Positions 4,196-30,510 of a stretch of DNA of 64,000 nucleotides are shown in pieces (the first letter of the stretch is position 1; each line of letters opens with the position of its first letter). Source of the DNA: Oscillospiraceae bacterium (GTDB taxonomy: Bacteria > Bacillota > Clostridia > UBA1212 > UBA1255); assembly GCA_015069185.1 (NCBI GenBank), contig SVJB01000002.1, positions 109,089 through 173,088 of the forward strand. Reading direction: 5' to 3'. The notes below the pieces were generated by a model. It was not told the origin of the DNA, did not search any database, and saw only the letters and a program-made list of their open reading frames with translations. Made by a program: the position numbers and the translations under genes.

Positions 4196-5404
4196 ATGGC
4201 AAAAGCTAAGTTCGAAAGAACCAAATCACATGTAAATATTGGTACTATCGGTCACGTAGACCATGGTAAGACAACTCTTACAGCTGCAATCACAAAAGTA
4301 CTTGGTTTAGCAGGTAACGCAGAGGTTAGAGCTTATGATCAGATCGACAACGCTCCAGAGGAGAAGGCAAGAGGTATCACGATCAACACATCACACGTTG
4401 AGTATCAGACAGCAAACAGACACTATGCTCACGTTGACTGCCCCGGACATGCTGACTATGTTAAGAACATGATCACAGGTGCAGCTCAGATGGATGGTGC
4501 TATCCTTCTCGTTTCAGGTCCTGATGGCCCGCAGGCTCAGACAAGAGAGCACATTCTTCTTGCTCGTCAGGTAGGCGTTCCTTACATCGTAGTATTCATG
4601 AACAAGTGCGATATGATCGATGAAGGCGACGAAGAGCTCCTCGATCTCGCTGAGATGGAAATCAGAGAGCTCCTTAGCGCATATGACTTCCCAGGTGACG
4701 ATATTCCGATCATCAGAGGTTCTGCTCTTAAGGCTCTTGAGTGCGAAGATACAGATACTAATGCAGCTCCTTACGCTTGCATCAACGAGCTCATGGACGC
4801 AGTTGACTCTTATATTCCTACACCTCAAAGACCTACAGACCTTCCTTTCCTTCTTCCTGTTGAGGACGTATTCACAATCACAGGTCGTGGTACAGTTGCT
4901 ACAGGTCGTCTTGAGAGAGGTATCATCAAGGTTGGTGATCCTGCTGAGATCGTTGGTCTTAAGGATGAGAACCGTTCAACAGTTGTTACAGGTGTTGAGA
5001 TGTTCAGAAAGCTCCTCGATCAGGCTGAAGCTGGCGACAACGTAGGTGTTCTTTTAAGAGGTATTCAGAGATCAGAAGTTGAGAGAGGTCAGGTTCTCGT
5101 TAAGCCCGGTACAATTCAACCTCACACACACTTCAAAGGTCAGGTTTACGTATTAACAAAAGAAGAAGGTGGCCGTCATAAGCCTTTCTTCAGCAACTAC
5201 AGACCTCAGTTCTATTTCAGAACAACAGACGTTACAGGTGTTATCACTCTTCCTGAGGGAACAGAAATGGTTATGCCTGGTGACCACATCGAGATGGAAG
5301 TTAAGCTCATTACTCCTATCGCTATGGAAAAAGGTCTCAAGTTCGCTATCCGTGAAGGTGGTAGAACAGTAGGCGCTGGTAACGTTACTACTATTATTGA
5401 ATAA
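4196..5404 (+). CDS. tuf: Elongation factor Tu
   Basis: [24 protein letters not shown], 402 aa; SD aaggaggat. Confidence 0.98.
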
Positions 5405-5427
5405 TTTTAAATAATTCAATATAAATC

Positions 5428-5465
5428 AAGAATTGCAACCGAATGGTTGCAATTCTTTTTTTTTG
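5428..5465 (+). terminator. Rho-independent terminator after tuf
   Basis: AAGAATTGCAACC-gaat-GGTTGCAATTCTT followed by a T run. Confidence 0.93.
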
Positions 5466-7732: not shown

Positions 7733-9229
7733 ATGGCTAAGCCTGAAAATACACAACAAAATAAGAAACCATTTTTCTCTGAAAAAACAAGACGTAGATT
7801 CAGATTTGGATCAGGTTCATTGTTTATGTTAATTGCAGCTGTTGTTTTGTTTGCAGTAATAAACATTGTTCTGGAACAACTACCTATGTCGATAGATATA
7901 AGTAAAGATAAAATGTATACTCTTTCAGAGGCATCAATTGAGAAAGTAAAATCTTTAGATCAGAAAATAGAGATTATTGCTCTGTATGATAGAGTTCGTG
8001 GAGAAGCAGATAGTCAGAAGGCAACAATTATACGTATTCTTGATCAATATGAAAGATATGGCGGAGATATGATTGATATTTCGTATGTATCTCTTGATGA
8101 CAATCCCGGTATTATAGCAGACAAAGTTCCTAATGAGAATCTTGCGTCTGCGTTTGGGGAGAACGACTATATTGTAAGAAACACTGAGACAGGACGAGTA
8201 CAACGCATTGATGCAAATGAAATGTTTTCAATGGAACTTGATTATACAAGCTTTCAGTATAATATTATTTCAGTTGACACAGAAAAAGTTGTAACATCTT
8301 CTCTTTATTACGTAACAGCAGAACATATTCCTGTTATATATTTTTCGACATCATACGGCGAAGAAGATCTTGACGACTTTACATCTTTGACCGACAATCT
8401 CTCTTATTACAATTATGATGTAAAGACTGTTGACCTGGATAATGTAGAGGCTGTTCCTGAGGATGCATCTATTATAGTATTTATGAGTCCTGAAAGAGAT
8501 CTTACGGATAGATTATACAATATGATGTATGACTGGCTCACAAGTAAAGATGGAGGTGATGCGATATTTGCATTTGATCCAATTCTTACAGGTGGTAAAT
8601 TGACAAACTTTAATAAACTTCTTTCTGAATTATACGGAATTCAAGTAAATAGCGATGTTGTTACTGATGTAACAGGCAATCAGCTAGCTTCCGCAGGAAA
8701 AGAAAACTATATTTATGCGTCATCTGTACAGGAAAAAGAAGGACCTCTTGCAGACTTCGCACCACAAAATAACTTTTATGCGTTTAATTCCAGTAGTATC
8801 AAGATACTTGCTTCAGTAGGCGATTACGATACAGGCGCCCTTATTACAACAAGAAGCGAAGATGCTACATGTACAGATATTTCTACAGGCACCAAGATTA
8901 CGGGTAAAGCGACCTTAGCCGCTTATGGACAAAGAAGTTATACAGGCAACAAGGTTGTTGTATTCGGCTCTTCTGAATTGCTTAAGGATGATGTAATAAA
9001 GCAGTATAAGAATACAAATACGGCAGGTGCATTTATTTATTCTATATCTTGGATGGAAGATATGTATGCAAGTGCTGCTGACGAGATTGAGGTTAAGACA
9101 GGTGATGGTAGTATTGTTGCTGTAACCCAAAGCACCAGCCGTGGTCTCGCTGCTTTTGCTATAATTATTTATCCTATTCTGATTATTCTTGTCGGTGTTA
9201 TTGTATGGCTCATACGTAGACATCTGTAA
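7733..9229 (+). CDS. GldG-family ABC-associated protein
   Basis: TM at both ends, extracytoplasmic Gld_ABC_transp-like body, operon context. Confidence 0.82.
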   Translation: MAKPENTQQNKKPFFSEKTRRRFRFGSGSLFMLIAAVVLFAVINIVLEQLPMSIDISKDKMYTLSEASIEKVKSLDQKIEIIALYDRVRGEADSQKATIIRILDQYERYGGDMIDISYVSLDDNPGIIADKVPNENLASAFGENDYIVRNTETGRVQRIDANEMFSMELDYTSFQYNIISVDTEKVVTSSLYYVTAEHIPVIYFSTSYGEEDLDDFTSLTDNLSYYNYDVKTVDLDNVEAVPEDASIIVFMSPERDLTDRLYNMMYDWLTSKDGGDAIFAFDPILTGGKLTNFNKLLSELYGIQVNSDVVTDVTGNQLASAGKENYIYASSVQEKEGPLADFAPQNNFYAFNSSSIKILASVGDYDTGALITTRSEDATCTDISTGTKITGKATLAAYGQRSYTGNKVVVFGSSELLKDDVIKQYKNTNTAGAFIYSISWMEDMYASAADEIEVKTGDGSIVAVTQSTSRGLAAFAIIIYPILIILVGVIVWLIRRHL

Positions 9230-9241
9230 TGGAGTGTATAT

Positions 9242-10672
9242 ATGAAAAAGTATAAAACAACAATCATTGCAATAATTGTCATAGTGGTAGCGCTGGTTGG
9301 ATTCTTTGTTTTCAATAGTTTATTATCTGATCGGAACAACACACAGGATCCCGGAAAAGATGATGATAGTGATTATCACTATATCATAAGCTTTGCAACA
9401 TCAAAAATAAAACAAATAGATGCTCTTAACGAGGGTTATTTATTGACAATAGGTACGAAATATGATGGCTCATGGGAATGCAAGACATTAGACACACTTC
9501 CTATTGTGCAAACGAATGTATCCGCACTATTTACTACATTGCGTAATACCAAGGGCACTATTGCGTACGAGGGTGAACTTACTGACAAGGTAAAGGATTT
9601 ATATAAAGTTACAGATGAGAAAACGTTAAAGTATACATTGGACGATGACAGTGTGGTTACATTATCAGTGGGCATGAACAAACCGGGTGCCTCTTCTTAT
9701 TATGTTGCTGTGACAGGCGACACGGAAAATCCGGATCGTGTATATGTAATTACTTCAACATATCTTGACGCCCTGTTTTTCACCAAACATGATTTAATAT
9801 CTACTGCCATTTTCTCGTTTACAGATTCCGGTAAGATACGGTATTTAAAAATACAGAAGTCCGGAGAACCTTTCTTTGAGGCATCGGCTGATCTGTCTGG
9901 TGAAAAGAGAGTGTGGAATGCAACCTATCCAATATCAAGATTAGGAGATTATTCACATATTGAATCTTTGATAAATGCTGCTACAGCTTTAGTGACCGAT
10001 TCTCATGTTGCTTCAAGTCCGGAGGACTTATCGCAATACGGTCTTGATATTCCTTACTATCAGTTGACAATAGGAGATAATAAGAAAGAAATCACAATGA
10101 CACTGGGTAATAAGACGCCTGACGGATTATATTACTATTGCCTGATATCGGGTATTGATGATGTCCTTACCATATCAGCTGAGAGTATCACATTCAGTGA
10201 TGAAGCTCAAGTTGTGTTAATAGATAGATATGCATATATGATTAATTATACAGAATTGACAGAACTCAAACTCTATTATGGAGGCCAGGAGTATTTACTT
10301 ACTTATGACATAACTGAAGAAACAGAACTGTTATATTTCAACGGAATTAACACATATATTGATGAAAATAGAGATTATAGGTACGATTTTAAATGTATAG
10401 GAACTTCTCTTTACGGCATTTCTATTACTGAGATTGAGCCCGAACCCAATCATACCGATGAGGTTGTGATCAAGGTAGATTATACATTGAGAGACGGCAC
10501 CAAGGTGAATGTGACAGGCTATAAAAGAGATGATTATACATTCTGCACATACGTAGATGGCAAATATATAGGCGGATATTCTAATATGCGTCAATTAACA
10601 GGCACCAAGGAAAATTACGGTCTCAACGGATGTATTGTGGATCTTAAGTCCTTACTTGGTATCCAAGACTAA
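9242..10672 (+). CDS. DUF4340 domain-containing protein
   Basis: N-terminal TM and repeated DUF4340-like fold; usual partner of GldG-like genes. Confidence 0.75.
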   Translation: MKKYKTTIIAIIVIVVALVGFFVFNSLLSDRNNTQDPGKDDDSDYHYIISFATSKIKQIDALNEGYLLTIGTKYDGSWECKTLDTLPIVQTNVSALFTTLRNTKGTIAYEGELTDKVKDLYKVTDEKTLKYTLDDDSVVTLSVGMNKPGASSYYVAVTGDTENPDRVYVITSTYLDALFFTKHDLISTAIFSFTDSGKIRYLKIQKSGEPFFEASADLSGEKRVWNATYPISRLGDYSHIESLINAATALVTDSHVASSPEDLSQYGLDIPYYQLTIGDNKKEITMTLGNKTPDGLYYYCLISGIDDVLTISAESITFSDEAQVVLIDRYAYMINYTELTELKLYYGGQEYLLTYDITEETELLYFNGINTYIDENRDYRYDFKCIGTSLYGISITEIEPEPNHTDEVVIKVDYTLRDGTKVNVTGYKRDDYTFCTYVDGKYIGGYSNMRQLTGTKENYGLNGCIVDLKSLLGIQD

Positions 10673-15179: not shown

Positions 15180-15661
15180 TTATTTTCGGAGTAGATCCCG
15201 GCTTTGCTCTTACCGGTTACGGGATTATAGAAGCTGATAAAAGTAAACTCCGTTTGCTTGAAGCCGGCTGTGTCAGTACTAAGGCAGACGAACTTTTCAC
15301 AGCAAGATGTGAGAAAATATATAACGAACTGTCAGCTCTTATGCAAAAGTACAAACCCGATGCTTTTGCTGTTGAGGAACTTTTCTTTAACAGCAATCAG
15401 AAAACAGCTATTATGGTGGCACAGGGCAGAGGGGTTGCTGTATTAGCTGCTACTCACAATAAAATACCGGTATATGAATATACGCCACTGCAAGTCAAGC
15501 AATCTGTTGCAGGTTATGGCAGAGCGGATAAAAATCAAGTACAACAAATGGTAAAGGTTATTTTGAAATTAGATAAAATTATTAAACCGGATGACGCGGC
15601 AGATGCTGTTGCTATAGCCATCAGCCACGCCTACGGATATAGAGGAGCTAAGATAATATGA
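15176..15661 (+). CDS. ruvC: Crossover junction endodeoxyribonuclease RuvC
   Basis: [20 protein letters not shown] overlap with ruvB. Confidence 0.97.
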
Positions 15662-16884
15662 AGTTGTTATTGCATATTTGCTGCGGCCCATGCAGCCTTA
15701 AAGTAATTGATATGTTACAAGAAGATGGTCTGTATAATATACAGGGCTATTTCTTTAATCCTAATATACATCCACACGAGGAGTTTGAGAGGCGTCAGCA
15801 GAGCACAAGTCAGGCTTGTGCCTTTAAAGGAATTGTTCTTCATATCAGTGATGCATACGATATTGAGAGTTGGCAGAATTTTGAAGGTGAGGGTGCCTTG
15901 CGCTGTGAGATGTGCTACAGACGTAGAATAGAAGCTACTGCAAAGTATGCGGCGGAAAACGGCTTTACTCACTTTACTACAACCTTGCTTGTCAGTCCTT
16001 ATCAGAATCACGAGCTGATAATTGAGATCTGTAATGAAATGGCAGAGAAATACGGAGTTGAATTCTACTATAAGGACTTTAGACCGGGATTCCGGGAAGG
16101 TCAGCAGCAAGCACGTGACATAGGTATGTACCGTCAGAAATATTGCGGATGCATAATATCTTTTGGAGAGTATCAAGAGCGCTTAGCAATAAAAAAAGCG
16201 AAAAAAGAGGCTATGGCTTTGGCTCAGGCAGAGGCAGAGGATAAGAAGAAAAAGCCGGAAAAGAAATATTTGATCAAGAATAAGGTGGTGCGCGAGTTGG
16301 TAAGTTGGACAGTAACGATATTGGCTGCTTTTGTCATTGCTTTGATAATAAATACTTACGTATTCAGAATCAGCCAGGTTGATGGTATCTCGATGCGCCA
16401 GACTTATCAGGGTGGCGAGAGAGTATATATGTCGCGTATTCCATACATCTTCGGTAATCCGAAGCACGGTGATATTGTGGTATTTGACTCAAGTATGATT
16501 GATAGAAACTTTTTCACAGATGTGAAGGAGTCTCTCAAATACAATGTAATAACTTATTCACTGTTTGATGTGGCCCCGCCTAAGAAATATTATATTAAAC
16601 GTGTTATTGCTGTCGAGGGTGATGTTATTAGGATCACCAACGAAGGCGTATATGTAAATGATGTGTTGATTGAGGAAAATTATGTTAATAATTCAGAAAC
16701 ACCGGCTTACCCTATGCCTGGAATGTCATTTGATTCCAATCAATGGTTGACCTCGTTGAATGAAGGAATTGTGGTTCCTGAGGATCATGTCTTTGTCATG
16801 GGTGACAATCGCAATCATAGTACAGATAGCAGAGCCCTTGGATTTGTGCCGGAAAACGATATTTTAGGAAAGGTGTTTGAGTGA
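15658..16884 (+). CDS. Fusion: epoxyqueuosine reductase QueH (N-terminal) - signal peptidase I (C-terminal)
   Basis: LLHICCGPCSLKVIDML, CEMCYRRRIEATAKYA, QKYCGC (QueH); then TM, QVDGISMRQTY, YYIKRVIAVEGD, VFVMGDNRNHSTDSR (SPase I). Confidence 0.93.
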   Translation: MKLLLHICCGPCSLKVIDMLQEDGLYNIQGYFFNPNIHPHEEFERRQQSTSQACAFKGIVLHISDAYDIESWQNFEGEGALRCEMCYRRRIEATAKYAAENGFTHFTTTLLVSPYQNHELIIEICNEMAEKYGVEFYYKDFRPGFREGQQQARDIGMYRQKYCGCIISFGEYQERLAIKKAKKEAMALAQAEAEDKKKKPEKKYLIKNKVVRELVSWTVTILAAFVIALIINTYVFRISQVDGISMRQTYQGGERVYMSRIPYIFGNPKHGDIVVFDSSMIDRNFFTDVKESLKYNVITYSLFDVAPPKKYYIKRVIAVEGDVIRITNEGVYVNDVLIEENYVNNSETPAYPMPGMSFDSNQWLTSLNEGIVVPEDHVFVMGDNRNHSTDSRALGFVPENDILGKVFE

Positions 16885-18852: not shown

Positions 18853-18900
18853 ATACACGATTATACAGTATTTAATGTATAATCAATGCATATATACATT
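18839..18900. promoter_or_regulatory. Clustered TGTATA/TATACA dyads over the argG promoter (putative operator)
   Basis: AAATACTGTATAA (18839-18851)/TTATACAGTATTT (18861-18873) perfect IR; TGTATA-A-TATACA at 18845-18857; AATGTATA (18874-18881)/TATACATT (18893-18900). Confidence 0.65.
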
Positions 18901-18925
18901 ATTTTCACGAATGGAGCCGAGAAAA

Positions 18926-20167
18926 ATGAATAAATCAGCAAAGAAAATCAAAAAAATCGTTTTGGCATACTCAGGTGGTCTGGATACTTCTATAATTATT
19001 CCGTGGCTTAAGGAAAATTATGAGGGTTGTGAAGTCATTGCAGTATCTGCAGACGTAGGTCAAGGAACAGAACTTGACGGCTTAGAGGAGAAAGCAATCG
19101 CAACAGGCGCATCTAAATTATACATCGAAGACCTTAAAGAGGAATTCATTACAGATTACATTTACCCTACATTAAAAGCCGGTGCAGTTTACGAAGGAGA
19201 GTACCTCCTCGGTACATCTTTTGCACGTCCGATTATTGCAAAGAGAATTGTTGAGATTGCAAAAGCCGAGGGCGCAGATGCAATTTGCCACGGATGTACA
19301 GGTAAGGGTAATGACCAGGTAAGATTTGAACTTACTATCAAAGCTTTCGCGCCCGAGATGGAAATCATCGCTCCTTGGAGAATGTGGGATATCAAGTCAA
19401 GAGATGAAGAGATTGACTACGCTATTGCTCATAACATTCCTCTTAAAATTAACAGAGAAACAAACTATTCAAAGGATAAGAATTTATGGCATTTATCACA
19501 TGAAGGTCTTGACTTAGAGGATCCTGCAAATGAACCTATGTATGACAAGGAAGGATTCCTGGAAATGGGTCTGTCTCCTATGAAGGCACCTGATAAGGCA
19601 ACATATGTAACTATTGACTTTGAGAAGGGTGTTCCTGTTGCTATTGACGGAGAGAAGCTTGATCCTGTTGCAATGCTGGAAAAGCTTAATAAACTTGGCG
19701 GAGATAACGGAATTGGTCTTGTTGATATTGTTGAGAATCGTCTCGTTGGTATGAAGTCAAGAGGTGTATACGAGACTCCCGGCGGCACAATTCTTTACAG
19801 AGCACACAGAGTACTTGAGACACTCACCCTTGACCGTGACACAATGCACTACAAAGATGTTATTGCTACAAAATATGCAGATCTTGTATATTTTGGCCAG
19901 TGGTTCACACCTCTTCGTGAAGCAATTGATGCTTTCGTAGATAGTACACAACAGACAGTTACAGGTACAGTAAAGCTTAAGCTTTATAAAGGAAATATGA
20001 TCAACGCAGGCGTTACATCTCCTTATTCACTATACGATGAGGAAATCGCAACCTTCGCAGAAGATGAGGTTTATAATCAGGCTGATGCAGACGGATTTAT
20101 TAATCTCTTTGGTCTTCCTATCAAAGTTAAAGCAATGTTAGATCAAAAAAGGAACAGCGGTAAATAA
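18926..20167 (+). CDS. argG: Argininosuccinate synthase
   Basis: [27 protein letters not shown] 18926 preferred. Confidence 0.96.
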
Positions 20168-21111
20168 TGATAAATGTTTTTATTGACGGATCTGCAGGCA
20201 CTACAGGCCTTCGCATTTCCGACAGATTAAAAGATAATAGCGAGATAAACCTTTTATTGCTTCCGGACGAGCTTCGTAAGAGTCCGGAAGCAATTAAAGC
20301 AATGATTAATAAGTCAGATATTACATTTTTATGCCTCCCGGATGCTGCGTCCAGAGAGGCTGTCACTTATTGTGAGAATCCTGACACTGTTATTATTGAT
20401 ACCTCTACTGCACACAGAACGAACCCTGAATGGGCGTACGGCTTTGCAGAGTTAAGTCCGCTTCACCGTAATAAAATCAAGAACAGCAAACGTATTGCAG
20501 TACCCGGTTGTCATGCAAGCGGATTTTGTTCAGTTGTATATCCGCTGGTGGCTGCAGGTATAATTGGAGCTGACTATCCTGTGACTGCACATTCTCTTAC
20601 AGGTTACTCAGGTGGCGGCAAGAATATGATTAAAGATTATACTGAGAATAAGACCGTTTATATGGATTCTCCTGCTCAGTATGGTTTGGGCCAGACACAC
20701 AAGCATCTTCCTGAAATGAAAACTATTTGTGGATTAGAAGATTATCCTGTGTTCAGTCCTATCGTTAGCGATTATTATAGTGGAATGGCAGTTACTGTGC
20801 CGCTTTTCACAAAACACATGAAAAAGAAAATGAATCCGCAGGAGTTGAGACAGTTTTATAGCGACTATTATAAAGATGCAAGGCTCATTTCTGTACTGCC
20901 TTATGATGAGAAAGGCGTAGAAGGTGGATTTTTATATGCAAACACACTCTCGGGTAAAGATAATATGGAAATAATTGTCAGCGGAAACGAAGATAGAATG
21001 GTAATCGTTTCACGCTTCTGCAATCTGGGCAAAGGTGCCTCGGGAGCAGCAATTCAGTGCATGAACATTTCATGCGGTTTAGACGAAGTAGAAGGATTGG
21101 AGATAGTATGA
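20167..21111 (+). CDS. argC: N-acetyl-gamma-glutamyl-phosphate reductase (short type)
   Basis: INVFIDGSAGTTGLRI, AVPGCHASGF. Confidence 0.95.
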   Translation: MINVFIDGSAGTTGLRISDRLKDNSEINLLLLPDELRKSPEAIKAMINKSDITFLCLPDAASREAVTYCENPDTVIIDTSTAHRTNPEWAYGFAELSPLHRNKIKNSKRIAVPGCHASGFCSVVYPLVAAGIIGADYPVTAHSLTGYSGGGKNMIKDYTENKTVYMDSPAQYGLGQTHKHLPEMKTICGLEDYPVFSPIVSDYYSGMAVTVPLFTKHMKKKMNPQELRQFYSDYYKDARLISVLPYDEKGVEGGFLYANTLSGKDNMEIIVSGNEDRMVIVSRFCNLGKGASGAAIQCMNISCGLDEVEGLEIV

Positions 21112-22322
21112 AGTTTGTAGAAGGCGGCGTTTGTGCGCCCAAAGGATTCAAAGCTGCGGGTATTCACTGCGGTATACGTAAAAATAAAGATAAGAAAGAT
21201 TTATCACTTATTCTTAGTGATACTATTGCAAGCGCAGGCGCTGTTTATACAACAAATCTTGTGAAAGGTGCGCCTATCGCGGTGACAAAAGCAAATATTT
21301 CTGATGGAAGAGCTATCGGTATGATTTGCAACAGTGGCAACGCCAATACATGCAACAGTGACGGTATAGAGATTGCCGAGAAAATGTGCCAAATTGCAGC
21401 AGAGGCTACAGGCAATAAAGCGCAGGATTTTATTGTTGCATCAACGGGCGTTATTGGCCAGCCTCTTAGCATTGAACCTATTGCAGCGCACATGGATGAG
21501 CTTGTAGAGAGTTTGTCTTATACAGGCAGCCAGGATGCTGCATATGGTATTATGACTACGGATACGAAACTCAAAGAGGTTGCTGTTGAGTTTGAACTTG
21601 GCGGCAAGGTATGCCGTATAGGCGGTATTGCAAAAGGCAGCGGAATGATTCATCCAAATATGGCAACGATGCTTGTATTTGTTACTTCAGACGTTGCTAT
21701 AGACAGCAGTGTGTTGAGTAAAGTACTTAAAGAAAATGCTGATGATACATTTAACATGGTTAGTGTTGACGGTGATACATCTACTAATGACATGCTCAGT
21801 ATAATGGCAAATGGTATGGCAGGAAATGATATTATCACAGAAGGCACACCGGAATTAGAGATTTTCAAAGAGGCACTTTTAGAAGTAACTAAATATCTCA
21901 GCCGGATGATTGCCAAAGACGGTGAGGGAGCTACCAAACTTTTGGAATGTCAAGTGAGAAATGCTGCGTCAGTTAAGGATGCAAAGATTCTGGCAAAATC
22001 TGTTATTTGCTCAAGTTTGGTTAAGGCTGCTATGTTTGGCGCTGATGCCAACTGGGGACGTATTCTTTGTGCCTTGGGCTACGCGGGTACAGACGCAGAT
22101 GTAACAAAGATTGATGTTGCATTTCGTTCGTGCGCAGGCGCAGTAAGAGTATGCAAGAACGGAAGTGGCATAGACTTTAGTGAGGAGATCGCAAAGACTG
22201 TACTTACTGAAGATGAGATTATCATAGATGTTAATATGAATGCAGGTAACGGAAATGCTACAGCTTGGGGCTGTGATCTTACTTACGATTATGTTAAAAT
22301 AAACGGCGACTACAGAACCTGA
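21108..22322 (+). CDS. argJ: Bifunctional ornithine acetyltransferase/N-acetylglutamate synthase
   Basis: GVCAPKGFKAAGIHCGIRK, KGSGMIHPNMATMLVF cleavage site; ATGA overlap with argC. Confidence 0.96.
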   Translation: MKFVEGGVCAPKGFKAAGIHCGIRKNKDKKDLSLILSDTIASAGAVYTTNLVKGAPIAVTKANISDGRAIGMICNSGNANTCNSDGIEIAEKMCQIAAEATGNKAQDFIVASTGVIGQPLSIEPIAAHMDELVESLSYTGSQDAAYGIMTTDTKLKEVAVEFELGGKVCRIGGIAKGSGMIHPNMATMLVFVTSDVAIDSSVLSKVLKENADDTFNMVSVDGDTSTNDMLSIMANGMAGNDIITEGTPELEIFKEALLEVTKYLSRMIAKDGEGATKLLECQVRNAASVKDAKILAKSVICSSLVKAAMFGADANWGRILCALGYAGTDADVTKIDVAFRSCAGAVRVCKNGSGIDFSEEIAKTVLTEDEIIIDVNMNAGNGNATAWGCDLTYDYVKINGDYRT

Positions 22323-22349: not shown

Positions 22350-23210
22350 ATGGATTATAGTGATATTACAAATGCACAAAGGGCAAGAGTTCTGGTAAGG
22401 GCTCTTCCTTATATAAAGCAGTATTATGATAAGGTAGTTGTTATCAAGTATGGCGGCAACGCTATGATTAACGAAGACCTGAAGCAAGCAGTTATGCGCG
22501 ATGTAGTGCTACTGTCTCTCATTGGTGTTAAGGTTGTACTTGTACACGGTGGCGGACCTGAGATAACACAGACACTTAACAGAATGCATATTGAGAGTCA
22601 TTTTCACAATGGCCTGCGCGTGACAGATGGTGAGACTGCTCAGGTAGTACAGATGGTGCTTGCAGGCAAGATCAATAAAAGTCTGGTGAACTTTATTGAG
22701 AACACCGGGGGTAAGGCAATTGGTCTTTCCGGTATGGACGGCCATATGCTGGAAGCAACGGTTAAGGATGAGGCGCTGGGCTTTGTTGGCGAAATAACAA
22801 CTGTTAATGAGCAGGTTATTGCAGATGTACTTGATAAAGGTTATATTCCTGTAGTGTCAACAGTAGGTTGTGACAGAGAGGGAAATGTGTATAACATAAA
22901 TGCTGATACTGCTGCAAGTCGCATCGCTGCCGCGCTCAAAGCAGAATGTCTTATATCAATGACAGATATTGAAGGCATTTTGCGCGACAAGGACGATCCT
23001 ACATCAATTATTAAAGTTATTGATGTATCTGAAGCTCAGAAGCTTTACGATGAAGGTATAATCTCCGGTGGCATGATTCCTAAGGTACAGTGTTGCGTAG
23101 ATGCAGTAAACAGCGGAGTAAAGAAGGTTTTTGTAATAGACGGCCGTGTACCTCATTCGATTATTATTGAAATGCTTACCGATGAAGGTATGGGAACAAT
23201 GTTTAAATAA
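22350..23210 (+). CDS. argB: Acetylglutamate kinase
   Basis: VVIKYGGNAM, VLVHGGGPEIT. Confidence 0.97.
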   Translation: MDYSDITNAQRARVLVRALPYIKQYYDKVVVIKYGGNAMINEDLKQAVMRDVVLLSLIGVKVVLVHGGGPEITQTLNRMHIESHFHNGLRVTDGETAQVVQMVLAGKINKSLVNFIENTGGKAIGLSGMDGHMLEATVKDEALGFVGEITTVNEQVIADVLDKGYIPVVSTVGCDREGNVYNINADTAASRIAAALKAECLISMTDIEGILRDKDDPTSIIKVIDVSEAQKLYDEGIISGGMIPKVQCCVDAVNSGVKKVFVIDGRVPHSIIIEMLTDEGMGTMFK

Positions 23211-23220
23211 AGGAAAGAAC

Positions 23221-24396
23221 ATGGAAAACACAATTTTTGAAAATGATAAAAAATACATTGCAAACACATACGGACGCTTCCCTGTCGCTGTAAAGAGCGG
23301 CAAAGGAAGCATCATTTATGATGTGGAAGGAAAACGCTATATAGACATGGGCAGCGGTATTGCTACAAATGCTTTCGGTCTGTGCGACGATGAATGGAAT
23401 AAAGCTATAACCGATCAACTTGGTGAGTATGCACATGTGTCAAACCTTTATTACTCTGAGCCTCAGGTAAAGCTTGCAAAACTGTTATGTGAAAAGACTG
23501 GTATGAAAAAAGTTTTCTTCGGTAATTCAGGCGCAGAAGCGAATGAAGGTGCTATCAAGGCGGCTCGTAAATACGCTTCAGACAACGGAAAACCTTCACA
23601 GAAGATAATTACACTTATTAATTCTTTTCACGGACGTACAATAACAACACTTAGTGCCACCGGACAAGATGTTTTTCACACGAACTTTGGTCCTTTTACA
23701 GAAGGTTTTGAATATGCACCGGCAAATGATATTGCAGCTATCAAGGCTATGATGTTCAAAGATGGTAAAGTGGATTGTGCGGCTGTTATGGTAGAGCTTG
23801 TGCAGGGCGAAGGTGGTGTGCTGGAGCTGAGTCAGGAATACGTTAAGGAATTATATGCACTCTGTAAGGAAAATGATATTCTTTTCATCGTAGACGAAGT
23901 GCAGACGGGAAATGGTAGGACAGGTACGCTTTACTGCTTTGAACAGTATGGTATTCTTCCTGATATTGTCACGACAGCCAAGGGCTTGGGTGGCGGTCTG
24001 CCCATTGGCGCTGTTATGCTTGGTGCAAAGGTTGAGAATACTTTGAGCGCAGGTACCCACGGATCTACTTTCGGAGGAAATCCTGTATGTGCAGCAGGTG
24101 CCTATAGCATAATTTCACGAATTGATAACAAACTTTTACTTGAAGTTCAGGCAAAAAATATGTATATTATAGAGGAGCTGGGAAAGTTGCCCGGCGTTGA
24201 GAATATTAGCGGAAAAGGCCTCATGCTGGGCATTAAAACAAAGAAGCCGGCAAAGGAGGTCATTTCAGCATGTATAGCAAGCGGTGTGCTTGTCCTTAGT
24301 GCAAAAGATAAAGTAAGGTTACTGCCGGCACTCAATATTCCAATGGATATATTGAAAGAAGCCGTGGAGATTATAGCCGCAGCAATTAATAATTAA
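23221..24396 (+). CDS. argD: Acetylornithine aminotransferase
   Basis: FFGNSGAEANEGAIKAARK, FIVDEVQTGNGRTG, TTAKGLGGGLPIGA. Confidence 0.96.
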   Translation: MENTIFENDKKYIANTYGRFPVAVKSGKGSIIYDVEGKRYIDMGSGIATNAFGLCDDEWNKAITDQLGEYAHVSNLYYSEPQVKLAKLLCEKTGMKKVFFGNSGAEANEGAIKAARKYASDNGKPSQKIITLINSFHGRTITTLSATGQDVFHTNFGPFTEGFEYAPANDIAAIKAMMFKDGKVDCAAVMVELVQGEGGVLELSQEYVKELYALCKENDILFIVDEVQTGNGRTGTLYCFEQYGILPDIVTTAKGLGGGLPIGAVMLGAKVENTLSAGTHGSTFGGNPVCAAGAYSIISRIDNKLLLEVQAKNMYIIEELGKLPGVENISGKGLMLGIKTKKPAKEVISACIASGVLVLSAKDKVRLLPALNIPMDILKEAVEIIAAAINN

Positions 24397-24417: not shown

Positions 24418-25329
24418 ATGGATCATTTATTAAAATTAGGAGACCTGACAGAAGAAGAAATCGTACAGATTCTTGATTTGGCAGATCAGCTTAAATACGA
24501 AAAGAAAAACGGAATCCCTCATAAGCATCTTGCAGATAAGACTCTTGGTATGATTTTCAGAAAGTCATCTACACGTACACGTGTATCATTTGAGGTTGGT
24601 ATGTACGACCTCGGTGGTAGCGCTTTGTTCCTGTCATCAAATGATCTGCAGATCGGCAGAGGAGAAGATACACAAGATACAATCAGAGTTTTGTCACGTT
24701 ATCTGGATGGAATTATGATCAGAACTTTTGACCAGGAAGAGGTTGAGATGATGGCAGAATATGGTAGCATCCCGATCATTAATGGTCTTACTGATTATGC
24801 ACATCCTTGTCAGGTGTTAGCAGATCTTATGACTATACGCGAGCGCAAAGGTACTCTAAAAGGACTTAAAATGGCCTTTGTGGGCGATGGAAATAATATG
24901 GCTAACTCGCTTATCGTTGGTGCTATTAAGACCGGAATGAGCTTTGCAATCGCTTGCCCTGAAGAGTATAAGCCTGATTGCGAGATTATGAACTGGGCAC
25001 AGAATAACGGAGATTTCCTCTGTACTACATCAGTTGATGAGGCAGTTAAGGATGCTGATGTTATCTATACTGACGTATGGGCATCTATGGGTCAGGAAAA
25101 TGAGAGAGCAATCCGCAAAGCAGCATTTAAATATTATTGTGTAGATGGACATGCCTGCAGTCTGGCAAAGCCTGATGTAATGGTGCTTCACTGTCTGCCG
25201 GCTCACAAGGGTGAAGAGATTACAGCAGATGTTTTCGAAGCGCATGCATCTGAGATCTTTGACGAGGCAGAGAACAGATTACATGCACAAAAGGCAGTTA
25301 TGGTTTTATTGATGAAAAAGGAGAAATAA
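24418..25329 (+). CDS. argF: Ornithine carbamoyltransferase
   Basis: KSSTRTRVSFEVGM, HPCQVLADL, HCLPAHKGEEI. Confidence 0.97.
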   Translation: MDHLLKLGDLTEEEIVQILDLADQLKYEKKNGIPHKHLADKTLGMIFRKSSTRTRVSFEVGMYDLGGSALFLSSNDLQIGRGEDTQDTIRVLSRYLDGIMIRTFDQEEVEMMAEYGSIPIINGLTDYAHPCQVLADLMTIRERKGTLKGLKMAFVGDGNNMANSLIVGAIKTGMSFAIACPEEYKPDCEIMNWAQNNGDFLCTTSVDEAVKDADVIYTDVWASMGQENERAIRKAAFKYYCVDGHACSLAKPDVMVLHCLPAHKGEEITADVFEAHASEIFDEAENRLHAQKAVMVLLMKKEK

Positions 25330-25332
25330 TAT

Positions 25333-26409
25333 ATGCGCAAGGCTTATTTAATACTGGAAAACGGAAGTGTATTTGAAGGACAGATGTTTGGCTTCGAGAA
25401 AGAAACCGTGGCAGAGCTTGTTTTTTCCACTTCTATGGTAGGCTACATGGAAGCTCTCACCGATCCGGCTTACGAAGGTCAGATGTTACTGCAGACTTTC
25501 CCTATGATAGGCAATTACGGTGTTATGGAAGATGATACTGTATCTGATAGTGTTCATGTTAGTGGCTACATTGTAAAAGAGCTTTGTGATACCCCTTCAA
25601 ACTTCCGGAGCATGGGTGCTTTGGAAGTCTTTTTATGTAAAGCGGGTGTTACAGGTATCTGCGATATTGATACTCGTGAGGTGACGAGAATTCTTCGTGA
25701 AAATGGTACGATGAACGCATGCATATCCTTTTCACCTGTTCTTAGTCCTGAAAATGAATTACTCATTAAAACCTATAAAGTGACAAATGCAGTTGCTAAG
25801 ACTACAGTTAAGGAAAGATACGAAATACCTGCATGTGAGAGTGCGCCTCGTAAATTCAAGGCTGCGTTAATTGACTACGGCAAGCATAAGGAAGTAGCAA
25901 AGGCTTTTGCGCAAAGAGGCGCAGATGTGACAGTGCTTCCGTCTGATACTGATGCTTGTGAGATTTTATTTGGCGGCTATGATGCTGTTGTTCTGTCAGG
26001 CGGTCCCGGAGACCCCAGAGACTGTGTAGCTCAGATAGAGGTTGTTAAGAAGATTTATGGTTCCAAGCCCGTGTTTGCAGTAGGCCTAGGTCACCAGATT
26101 CTGGCATTGGCTAACGGTTTTGAGGTAAAAAAGCTTCTTTATGGACACAGAGGTGCCAGCCAGCCGGCAACACAGGATAGAACATATATAACAAGCCAGA
26201 ATCACTCCTACTATGTTGTTTCTGAATCAATCCACGAAGAAGTAGCACATCAAACATATTTCAACGCAAACGATAAAACGTGTGAGGGTATTGCCTATGA
26301 TAATGGCGATTATTCTATTCAGTTTGTGCCGGACGAATCTAACGGACCGCACGATATGAGCTTCGTTTACGATGAGTTTATTAATAGTATTTTTGCAGAA
26401 CGCGAATAA
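25333..26409 (+). CDS. carA: Carbamoyl-phosphate synthase small subunit with degenerate glutaminase active site
   Basis: Full-length CarA architecture (GYMEALTDPAYEGQ, GNYGV, GPGDP, GHQ), but VGLGHQ replaces ICLGHQ and FVPDESNGPHD replaces FHPEASPGPHD. Confidence 0.93.
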   Translation: MRKAYLILENGSVFEGQMFGFEKETVAELVFSTSMVGYMEALTDPAYEGQMLLQTFPMIGNYGVMEDDTVSDSVHVSGYIVKELCDTPSNFRSMGALEVFLCKAGVTGICDIDTREVTRILRENGTMNACISFSPVLSPENELLIKTYKVTNAVAKTTVKERYEIPACESAPRKFKAALIDYGKHKEVAKAFAQRGADVTVLPSDTDACEILFGGYDAVVLSGGPGDPRDCVAQIEVVKKIYGSKPVFAVGLGHQILALANGFEVKKLLYGHRGASQPATQDRTYITSQNHSYYVVSESIHEEVAHQTYFNANDKTCEGIAYDNGDYSIQFVPDESNGPHDMSFVYDEFINSIFAERE

Positions 26410-26424
26410 GAAAGGTCGGTATAT

Positions 26425-29400
26425 ATGCCAAGAAATCAATCGATAAAGAAAGTTTTAGTTATAGGTTCAGGCCCGATTGTTATCGGACAGGCTGCTGAGT
26501 TTGACTACGCAGGTACCCAGGCGTGCCGCGTGCTCAAAAGTGAGGGTATCAATACAATTCTTGTAAACTCAAATCCTGCTACGATTATGACCGACAATCT
26601 TATGGCAGATGAGATATACCTGGAACCTCTTAATGTAGATACAATAAAAAGAATTATTCAAAAAGAACACCCTGACTGCTTACTGGCAGGCTTTGGTGGA
26701 CAGACAGGTCTGACAATTGCGATGAAGCTTGCTAAGGAAGGCTTCCTTGAGCAGGAGAAAGTAAGGCTTATCGGTACAAATGCTGAGGCCATTGACAGGG
26801 CGGAAGATAGGCAGCTTTTCACAGATACAATGAATGAAATTAATCAGCCTGTTATTCCTTCTGATACCACAAATACGGTAGATGGTGCGCTAGCGATTGC
26901 AGAGAAAATCGGATATCCGGTTATTATTCGTCCTGCTTTTACTTTAGGTGGCGGTGGAGGCGGTGTTGCATATAACGCTGAGGAATTACTGACTGTTGCT
27001 AAAACAGGACTGGACTTTTCACCGATAACACAGATTCTGGTTGAGAAATACATCTTTGGCTGGAAAGAAGTGGAATTTGAGGTTATGCGTGACTCTAAGG
27101 GTAATGCGATTACTGTTTGCTCTATGGAGAATGTTGACCCTGTTGGTATTCATACAGGAGACAGTGTTGTTGTTGCTCCGGCTCTTACTTTGTCGCCGAA
27201 GGAATACAATATGCTCAAGACGGCTGCTTTGAATATTATTGAGGCTCTGAAGATCGAGGGTGGTTGCAACTGCCAATTCGCGTTGGATCCTAAAAGTATG
27301 CAGTATGCAGTTATCGAGGTTAACCCACGTGTGTCACGTTCATCAGCTCTGGCAAGCAAGGCAACAGGTTATCCGATTGCGAAGGTTGCCACTAAGATTG
27401 CGCTGGGATATACGCTGGATGAGATTATTAATGATGTTACGGGTAAGACATATGCATGCTTCGAACCTGCTATCGACTACCTTGTAGTTAAGATGCCAAA
27501 GTGGCCTTTTGATAAGTTTGTTAATGCTTCACGTGTGCTCGGTACTCAGATGAAAGCAACAGGTGAAGTTATGGCCATTGGCGATAACTTTGAGTCTGCT
27601 TTGCTTAAAGCTATCAGAGGAGTGGAGCTTTCCGTTGATACGCTTGCGCTACCTGCTGTTACTAAGTTGTCTTATGAAGAGACTCTGGAGGCGCTGAAGA
27701 AACCCACAGATTTGCGAATTTTCCAAATTTATCATGCATTGAGGCTTGGCATCAGTGGCCAGGAGATACATAATATCACAAAGGTTGATATGTTCTTTAT
27801 TAATAAGATTAAAAATCTTTGTGAAATGGAAAGACAAATGGCTGCTGGGCTTGACTATAGCCTTTACTGCAAGGCTAAGAAAAATGGTTATACAGATAGA
27901 GCGATTGAAGCTATATCAGGTGTGAGTGTTGATTCTATTACAGATTCAGTTGCCTGTCCCAGATTGTATCCATCATACAAGATGGTAGATACGTGTGCCT
28001 GCGAGTTTGCAGCGATGACTCCTTACTTCTATTCTACATTTTACGGTCATTCTGAAGCTGGAGTTGCTGAGGGAGGCAAAGAGAGAATCGTTGTTCTTGG
28101 ATCGGGACCTATCAGAATAGGACAAGGAATTGAGTTCGACTACTCATCTGTTCATTGTGCTAGTATGCTTAAGGAACTTGGATACGAAGTAATTATTATT
28201 AACAACAACCCTGAAACTGTTTCTACAGACTTTGATATATCAGACAGACTTTACTTTGAGCCTCTGACACCAGAAGATGTTATGGGTATATTACGTGTTG
28301 AGAAGCCTGTGGGTGTTGTTGTTGCCTTTGGTGGACAGACTGCGATTAAACTTGTTAAATTCTTAGATAGTAATGGAATTACAATTCTTGGTACTTCTGC
28401 AAAGGGTATTGATACTGCAGAGGATAGAGAGTTATTTGATGCTCTTTTAGAGGAACATAATATTAAGAGACCTGTTGGTATTAGCGTTATGACTAAGCAA
28501 GAGGCTTTTGATGCTGCTTCAACAATTGGATATCCTGTGCTCCTGCGTCCTTCGTACGTTATTGGTGGCCAGAATATGACAATTGCATACAATGAGGATG
28601 ATGTATCCCTTTACATGGATTTGATTCTTGCTCAGAAAATTGAGAATCCTGTTCTTGTTGATAAATATATGAGTGGTACAGAGGTTGAGGTTGACGTTAT
28701 TTCAGATGGAATAGATGTATTTATTCCTGGTGTTATGGAACATATTGAGCGTACAGGTGTACACAGCGGAGACTCGATTGCTATGTATCCCCCGCAAAAT
28801 ATCAGCGATATTATGCTGAAGAAAATTGAAAATTCTTCAATTGTTATTTCTAAATCTCTGGGAACAAAAGGACTTCTTAATATTCAGTATCTGATTTGTG
28901 ATAACGAGCTCTATGTTATAGAGGTTAACCCAAGAGCTTCTCGTACAATCCCGTATATCAGTAAGGTTACGGGTGTACCTATGGTTGATGTTGCTACCAA
29001 GGTTATGCTTGGCCAGACTTTGGAGAGTCTGGGATACGGCAGTGGTATCCACAAGACTCCGCCTTACGTTGCAGTTAAGGTTCCGGTATTTTCCTTTGAG
29101 AAACTTTCTGATGTCAACTCTGTTCTGGGCCCTGAAATGAAGTCTACAGGAGAGGTGCTTGGTATCGGTAAGACTCTGGACGAAGCCCTTTTCAAAGGAC
29201 TTGTATCTGCTTCATTTAAGCTGAATATTAAAAGAGGCTCCGGTGTGTTTATCACAGTTTGTGATAAGGATAAGTTTGAGATTGTTAAGCTGGCTAAGAA
29301 ATTTGATGATCTTGGTCTTAAGATTTTTGCAACAAAAGGCACAGCCGAGACTATTTCAGAGCTGGGCATTGATGTTGAGGTTGTTAATAAGCTGTACGAG

Positions 29401-30510
29401 GATGACAGCATGATTGAAATGTTAGAGAGTGGTAAGGTTGAGTTCCTGGTATATACAGGTAAGAGCGATAAGGATTCTATTGCTGATTACATCAGAATGT
29501 ACAGAAGAGCTCTTCAACTTGGTGTTACATGTATTACATCGCTTGACACGGCTAATGCACTGGCAAATATTATTGCATCTAAATATAGTCTTTTTAATAC
29601 AGAGCTTATTGACATTAACAACATGCGTTCAGAACGTTTGGCTCTTGATTTTGTAAAGATGCAAGGCTCTGGCGACGATTATATTTTCTTTAATAACTTT
29701 GATGGACATATTACTTGTCCTGAGTCATTGTCTATTACAATGTGTGACCGGCACTACGGTATCGGCGGTGATGGTATTGTACTCATAGAAAAGTCAGATG
29801 TTGCCGATTGCATGATGAGGGTTTTCAATAAAGACGGTAGTGAAGGAAGTATTGCAGGTAACAGTATTCGTTGTGTAGGTAAGTACTTATATGATTACGG
29901 CTGTGTTTCTTCTGATAGAGATGAGGTTACTATTGAGACCAAAAGTGGTGTTAAGAAGTTAAAGCTCTACATTTATAGCGGCAAAGTTGCTTCTGTAAGC
30001 GTTGATCTTGGTAAGCCAGTGTTTGTTTCGGATAAGATTCCTGTTCGTCTGCGCGATTCTCGTAGCGGTGGATATTACTATATGCAGCGAGTTATGAATT
30101 ATGCGCAGAAAATTAACGATACACCTTATGTTATTAACTGCGTATCATTGGGTAATCCGCATTGCGTTATTTTCAAAGAGCGCGTTGACGCTGTTGACAT
30201 TGAGAAGGAAGGTCCGGCTATTGAATTATCTCCGATTTTCCCTGAGAAGGTCAATGTTGAGTTCGTTCGAGTTGTAAATAGTCGTACTCTCAAAATGCGT
30301 GTTTGGGAGCGTGGTAATGGTGAGACACTTGCCTGCGGTACAGGCGCGTGTGCAGCCGCAATTGCAGCTGTTGAGAATGGCTTCTGTGAGAAGAATGTGG
30401 ACATTACAGTTAAGCTTCCGGGTGGAGATCTTATTGTTAATTATTCAGATGATGGTGTTGTTCTGACAGGTAACGCTCAACTGGTTTATGAAGGCAAAGT
30501 TAGTATTTAA
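26425..30510 (+). CDS. carB: Fusion: carbamoyl-phosphate synthase large subunit (about 26425-29635) - diaminopimelate epimerase-like domain (about 29638-30507)
   Basis: 1361 aa continuous ORF: KVLVIGSGPIVIGQAAEFDYAGTQA plus second CarB half; then FVKMQGSGDDYIFFN, FNKDGSEGSIAGNSIRC, WERGNGETLACGTGACAAA (DapF). Confidence 0.94.
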   Translation: MPRNQSIKKVLVIGSGPIVIGQAAEFDYAGTQACRVLKSEGINTILVNSNPATIMTDNLMADEIYLEPLNVDTIKRIIQKEHPDCLLAGFGGQTGLTIAMKLAKEGFLEQEKVRLIGTNAEAIDRAEDRQLFTDTMNEINQPVIPSDTTNTVDGALAIAEKIGYPVIIRPAFTLGGGGGGVAYNAEELLTVAKTGLDFSPITQILVEKYIFGWKEVEFEVMRDSKGNAITVCSMENVDPVGIHTGDSVVVAPALTLSPKEYNMLKTAALNIIEALKIEGGCNCQFALDPKSMQYAVIEVNPRVSRSSALASKATGYPIAKVATKIALGYTLDEIINDVTGKTYACFEPAIDYLVVKMPKWPFDKFVNASRVLGTQMKATGEVMAIGDNFESALLKAIRGVELSVDTLALPAVTKLSYEETLEALKKPTDLRIFQIYHALRLGISGQEIHNITKVDMFFINKIKNLCEMERQMAAGLDYSLYCKAKKNGYTDRAIEAISGVSVDSITDSVACPRLYPSYKMVDTCACEFAAMTPYFYSTFYGHSEAGVAEGGKERIVVLGSGPIRIGQGIEFDYSSVHCASMLKELGYEVIIINNNPETVSTDFDISDRLYFEPLTPEDVMGILRVEKPVGVVVAFGGQTAIKLVKFLDSNGITILGTSAKGIDTAEDRELFDALLEEHNIKRPVGISVMTKQEAFDAASTIGYPVLLRPSYVIGGQNMTIAYNEDDVSLYMDLILAQKIENPVLVDKYMSGTEVEVDVISDGIDVFIPGVMEHIERTGVHSGDSIAMYPPQNISDIMLKKIENSSIVISKSLGTKGLLNIQYLICDNELYVIEVNPRASRTIPYISKVTGVPMVDVATKVMLGQTLESLGYGSGIHKTPPYVAVKVPVFSFEKLSDVNSVLGPEMKSTGEVLGIGKTLDEALFKGLVSASFKLNIKRGSGVFITVCDKDKFEIVKLAKKFDDLGLKIFATKGTAETISELGIDVEVVNKLYEDDSMIEMLESGKVEFLVYTGKSDKDSIADYIRMYRRALQLGVTCITSLDTANALANIIASKYSLFNTELIDINNMRSERLALDFVKMQGSGDDYIFFNNFDGHITCPESLSITMCDRHYGIGGDGIVLIEKSDVADCMMRVFNKDGSEGSIAGNSIRCVGKYLYDYGCVSSDRDEVTIETKSGVKKLKLYIYSGKVASVSVDLGKPVFVSDKIPVRLRDSRSGGYYYMQRVMNYAQKINDTPYVINCVSLGNPHCVIFKERVDAVDIEKEGPAIELSPIFPEKVNVEFVRVVNSRTLKMRVWERGNGETLACGTGACAAAIAAVENGFCEKNVDITVKLPGGDLIVNYSDDGVVLTGNAQLVYEGKVSI

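Follow-up and report, generated by a model that had tools for sequence, protein, structure and literature searches.

A full-length CarA with a dismantled glutamine site in an arginine operon of an Oscillospiraceae bacterium

In a 64,000-nucleotide stretch of DNA from an uncultured gut Oscillospiraceae bacterium of the class Clostridia (assembly GCA_015069185.1, contig SVJB01000002.1, positions 109,089 to 173,088; hereafter the window), we analysed carA, the gene for the small subunit of carbamoyl-phosphate synthase (CPS), which lies at 25333–26409 on the forward strand, as do all arg and car features described below. Its open reading frame (ORF), family matches, alignment and fold indicate a full-length CarA with a dismantled glutamine site, a putative pseudo-glutaminase. 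carA is the seventh gene in the run argG-argC-argJ-argB-argD-argF-carA-carB::dapF, directly downstream of argF (ornithine carbamoyltransferase; 24418–25329) and followed by a gene that encodes CarB (26425–29595) fused to a C-terminal DapF-like domain (29635–30510). The 358-residue product matches CarA along its whole length (PRK12838, E = 3.8e-109; TIGR01368, 345 bits with a cut-off of 307) and contains both Pfam domains, CPSase_sm_chain and GATase. An AlphaFold model of the protein (mean predicted local distance difference test score of 92) found its best structural matches in E. coli CarA (template modelling (TM) score of 0.91) and human CPS1 (TM 0.87), indicating that the CarA fold is retained in the predicted structure; together with the curated cut-offs passed and carB as operon neighbour, this fold places the protein within CarA.

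Alignment to E. coli CarA, whose sequence we verified against NP_414573 and whose numbering is used here, showed that the nucleophile Cys269 is replaced by Gly251 (codon GGC, 26083–26085), His353 by Val332 (GTG, 26326–26328) and Glu355 by Asp334 (GAC, 26332–26334). The original prediction, made from the DNA letters alone, had described these three replacements in a full-length ORF, together with the reading of LSNGPGDP as LSGGPGDP (Asn240 to Gly223, 25999–26001); the alignment bears out each of them, with the correction that the Gly codon had been placed about 7 bases too far right, at 26090–26096. Further changes had been missed, namely Ser47 to Ala46 (25468–25470), Lys202 to His185 (25885–25887), Asn294 to Ser276 (26158–26160) and Thr283 to Val. 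Altogether, seven glutamine-site residues are altered, all at columns that are invariant or nearly so in 117–118 canonical CarAs: Ser47, Lys202, Asn240 and Asn294 are the consensus residue in 117/117 canonical clostridial CarAs, which speaks against chance as the source of the changes, and the triad columns are invariant by definition, the canonical set being defined by the Cys/His/Glu triad itself. No substitute Cys/His triad was seen elsewhere in the aligned protein. Class I glutamine amidotransferases use a Cys nucleophile with His and Glu partners, positions that read Gly/Val/Asp here; the change of Glu355 to Asp is conservative, and the other two replacements carry most weight. Judged by its sequence, the window CarA is a pseudo-glutaminase, predicted to be no longer able to hydrolyse glutamine by the Cys–His mechanism.

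The window comes from a 2.1 Mb draft genome of 54 contigs (G000; 85% complete), which raises the question of a base-calling or assembly error. A separate metagenome-assembled genome of a congener from sheep rectum (G001; JAFWZX010000001, RGIG6223; 79% complete) has the same arg operon and the same Gly/Val/Asp state in a CarA that is 87% identical, encoded with different synonymous codons (GGG for Gly and GTA for Val). Because these replacements recur in a separate genome with other codons, an error is refuted and the replacements are real; with 36 CarAs lacking the Cys in all, some of them in single-contig genomes such as G316 and G280, the chance of an artefact is practically nil.

Comparison of the congeners further showed that the gene is constrained, with a ratio of nonsynonymous to synonymous substitution rates (dN/dS) of 0.023 for carA (NG86 method; dS is saturated) and of 0.02–0.07 for neighbouring genes. 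Within residues 224–352, which form the core of the inactive glutaminase domain, 123 of 129 residues are identical in the congener, and 69 of the identical ones are encoded by a different codon. The ORF is intact in both congeners, and neither the disrupted frame nor the relaxed selection of a pseudogene was found; the pattern of substitution instead indicates that the window CarA is under purifying selection.

To place this protein among its relatives, we surveyed 393 genomes of Clostridia, almost all of them with a completeness of at least 90%; 277 have CarA and 317 have CarB. CarAs were collected from the CarA matches of this survey, a scan for the Gly motif and fetched loci, and were then aligned; since the motif pattern also matches many unrelated 'GVGLGHE' proteins, a match was counted only if it was a confirmed CarA ORF. 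The resulting set of about 154 distinct CarAs, drawn from a ranking by similarity to the window and enriched for Gly types by design so that its proportions are not a frequency estimate, comprised 118 rows in which the triad is complete (E. coli being one of them), 36 that lack the Cys and one that keeps the Cys and has Gln in place of His; the 36 Cys-less ones are counted among 153 CarAs from Clostridia. The residue replacing Cys in the 36 was Gly in 31, Ser in 2, and Ala, Asp or Glu in one each, and the replacements of His353 varied among lineages (Val, Leu, Ser, Asn, Tyr, Phe). On a quick LG+G4 tree built with the trait columns left out, loss of Cys or His needs 17 changes, at least 14 of which are forced by well-supported branches; we read these changes as losses because E. 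coli and most deep branches are canonical. The tree indicates some 14 to 17 independent losses of the glutaminase site within Clostridia, in nearly every case by a change of Cys to Gly, and what had been regarded as unusual for a bacterial arg-operon CarA is thus recurrent.

Losses are found beside arg genes or in carA-carB::dapF pairs (L113–L118, L122, L123, L125, L126 and L132) and also in pyr-type loci (L108, L112, L120 and L140). In the taxonomic order to which the window's bacterium belongs, further Cys-less CarAs adjoin carB, with pyrB nearby, in G003, G025, G015 and G004 (a short contig), and lie away from carB in G017 and G018. Among eight CarAs of named cultured organisms in a plasmid collection, only that of Limosilactobacillus fermentum DR9 lacks the Cys (Gly, Phe, Asp); its carB is split and divergent, making it a weak model. 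We found no prior report of a Cys-less bacterial CarA in the open-licence literature, and earlier reports, on lactic acid bacteria for instance, may exist.

Individual loci showed further arrangements. A single-contig genome carries a tandem carAB-carAB (L121), in which the first CarA (4404–5447) is Cys-less with Gly and the second (8919–10010) is canonical. An acidic residue occupies the nucleophile position in L194 (G297; GIDLGHQ) and L197 (G105; GIELGHQ), with His353 kept. Triad-less CarAs stand alone, away from carB, at L030:8869–9933 and L031:8460–9557; the former has genes for Fur, rubrerythrin, an HTH protein and FeoB as neighbours, and may have a role in iron or redox regulation.

We then considered how the replacements are distributed within the protein, comparing decay over 58 columns that are nearly invariant in canonical CarAs. 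Among the 36 Cys-less CarAs, His353 is retained in 12, Ser47 in 14, Lys202 in 17 and Glu355 in 20, while Gly241, Leu270, Gly271, His272, Pro296, His312 and Asp334 are fixed in 35–36 of the 36. The glutamine-site array is reported to consist of Ser47, Lys202, Gln273, His353 and Glu355 besides the nucleophile, and 4 of these 5 remaining members rank within the top eight of 57 columns by degree of decay (hypergeometric P = about 8e-4). With glutamine-site residues decaying while structural positions stay fixed, the pattern is that expected of a pseudoenzyme and speaks against a general decay.

This distribution also bears on a rival view, in which CarA would be the product of a decaying pseudogene that is about to be lost, leaving CarB alone to make carbamoyl phosphate from ammonia. 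Such a course would fit relatives in which carA is missing beside carB (e.g. the arg locus L052 of G022 and the pyr operons L063, L065 and L069) and the separation of carA from carB in G017 and G018; the intact ORFs with a dN/dS of ~0.02, the dead half being the best conserved stretch between the congeners, and the structural positions fixed across the 36 Cys-less CarAs argue against it and render it quite unlikely for the window. The same conservation of the dead domain, exceeding that of the rest of the protein, would be expected if the former glutamine pocket had become a ligand-sensing allosteric site, with CarA kept as a regulator, a reading that is compatible with ammonia use and departs from the main one in the reason for keeping CarA. 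No ligand or specific pocket has been identified, and the differing His353 replacements argue against one common new ligand, leaving a low likelihood for this role.

CarB occurs without any CarA in at least 40 of the 393 genomes, some of which are single contigs (G259, G305 and G351); CarB is thus tolerated without a glutaminase. In the window's order, several genomes that are at least 90% complete have CarB and no CarA at all (G006, G007, G010, G013 and G020), and lone CarBs without an adjacent CarA, several in pyr operons, occur at L063:6834–10085, L065:10024–13197, L069:9854–13051 and L070:6061–9234.

The missing activity could come in trans from elsewhere, either from a second, canonical CarA or from a different class I glutaminase that docks on CarB. 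Among the 35 genomes in which a Cys-less CarA occurs, 8 have a second CarA, and most of the second copies that were read are canonical (e.g. G312, G280 and G316). The other 27 have no other CarA, and each Cys-less genome within the window's order has one CPSase_sm_chain match only; we know of no precedent for another glutamine amidotransferase docking on CarB, and we consider this explanation improbable.

The synthase itself appears to be intact. In the window CarB, neither the two ATP-grasp sites nor the gate of the ammonia tunnel show any loss: every catalytic residue checked is conserved in both modules, as are the gate residues Cys232, Ala251 and Ala314, the list of residues, gate included, following the E. 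coli structures. The counterpart gate in human CPS1 is formed by Cys648, Ala667 and Ala729 (PMC4655335). No second CarA or CarB, and with it no canonical carA of a pyr operon, was found in G000 or G001 (85% and 79% complete), which have one of each per genome, and the pyr operons of both (pyrC-K-D-F-E-B-I, the names except pyrB resting on gene order, gene size and resemblance among loci) contain neither carA nor carB. Because no other CarB was found in this incomplete genome, the window synthase probably feeds arginine and pyrimidine synthesis alike.

Since the glutaminase site is gone, CarA is maintained and CarB is catalytically intact, the best explanation, to which we give a probability of roughly 0.75, is a CPS of two subunits that uses ammonia and retains CarA, now a pseudo-glutaminase, as a structural or regulatory partner. 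In the proposed mechanism, the pseudo-glutaminase CarA probably docks on the CarB::DapF protein, and the complex would use bicarbonate, 2 ATP and free ammonia to make carbamoyl phosphate, supplying this product to ArgF, encoded next door, and probably also to PyrB. CarA would most likely keep CarB active or regulated and shape the entry of ammonia, and ammonia-rich gut habitats may have driven the loss of the glutaminase. Human CPS1, with Ser for Cys and an alternative ammonia path, provides a precedent for a synthase that uses ammonia only (PMC4655335). The original prediction had left ammonia dependence and another glutaminase subunit side by side: the former, with a structural CarA, is the reading that we favour, while the latter loses weight because no other CarA was found in G000 or G001 and 27 of the 35 genomes have none besides the Cys-less one.

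Several points weigh against an ammonia-using synthase. The E. coli enzyme reacts with ammonia only at high concentrations, described as 'likely physiologically irrelevant' (PMC6245113), so that use of free ammonia would require a lower Michaelis constant or ammonia-rich cells. Additionally, with G000 and G001 at 85% and 79% completeness, a second carAB could be missing from the assemblies, and an unrelated, non-homologous glutaminase may feed CarB.

The proposed ammonia-using synthase resembles several known systems in part. Animal CPS1 likewise keeps a dead CarA-like glutaminase domain (Ser for Cys in the human enzyme, PDB 5dou/5dot) and must take up free ammonia (PMC4655335), a property that is predicted from sequence for the window synthase. 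CPS1, however, is one polypeptide, mitochondrial and dependent on N-acetylglutamate, whereas the window system consists of two separate ORFs in a bacterial arg operon, with Gly for Cys, with His and Glu also replaced, and with CarB fused to a DapF-like domain. The window synthase, which retains an inactive glutaminase-like domain as CPS I does, may thus work like CPS I, yet we do not file it as such, as it falls outside the single-chain definition. With bacterial CPS II, represented by E. coli CarAB, it shares the two-subunit architecture, the fold and intact CarB active sites, and differs in a CarA that lacks the nucleophile and its partners. A C269G mutant of E. coli CarA has reportedly been made. 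Laboratory mutants at this position (C269S, structure 1c30) alter the same Cys269 that is replaced in nature, mostly by Gly; unlike them, the natural losses have arisen repeatedly and go along with erosion elsewhere in the glutamine site.

The DapF-like domain fused to CarB matches TIGR00652 at 263 bits and reads AGN ... ACGTG where DapF has two catalytic cysteines (CGN and ACGTG), the first being replaced by Ala and the second kept. In related Clostridia, almost every copy fused to CarB has Ala, Gly or Ser in place of the first Cys, and three fused copies of genus g4 (L039, L051 and L252) have lost the second as well; both are kept in every standalone DapF compared and, among fused copies, only in L145. 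G000 and G001 each have a separate DapF with both Cys (L236 and L232). In genus g4, a dead DapF domain occurs together with a canonical CarA, so the state of this domain is independent of that of CarA. Its role might, as a guess, be allosteric or scaffolding. No prior report of a CarB–DapF fusion was found in the open-licence literature.

Taken more broadly, these data tip slightly towards widespread, repeatedly evolved bacterial CPSs that are specific for ammonia and whose pseudo-glutaminase subunit is either conserved or absent. This would overturn the rule of glutamine dependence for bacterial CPS; for E. coli, a review names glutamine as the physiological nitrogen donor. The window lineage would add a pseudo-diaminopimelate-epimerase domain, placing two dead modules, possibly regulators, on one live synthase. 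If this is true, the approximately 14 to 17 independent losses amount to a natural replicate experiment for the origin of CPS I and could explain arginine and pyrimidine synthesis in ammonia-rich guts, and 'glutamine-hydrolyzing' names, with the matching metabolic models, would be wrong for these genomes.

The genes upstream of argF complete the operon. ORFs and a gene order conserved in locus L027 support all six arg genes, among them argG (18875–20167), argC (20167–21111) and argB (22350–23210). The ORF of argJ (21057–22322) has a start that overlaps argC, the true start probably lying near 21111, and argD (23221–24396) is given with the start used in the congener, its longest ORF beginning at 23146. 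Elsewhere in the window, an ORF at 15658–16884 combines a QueH-like N-terminus with a signal peptidase I-like C-terminus, both recognised by eye, and represents either an unusual fusion or a missed boundary.
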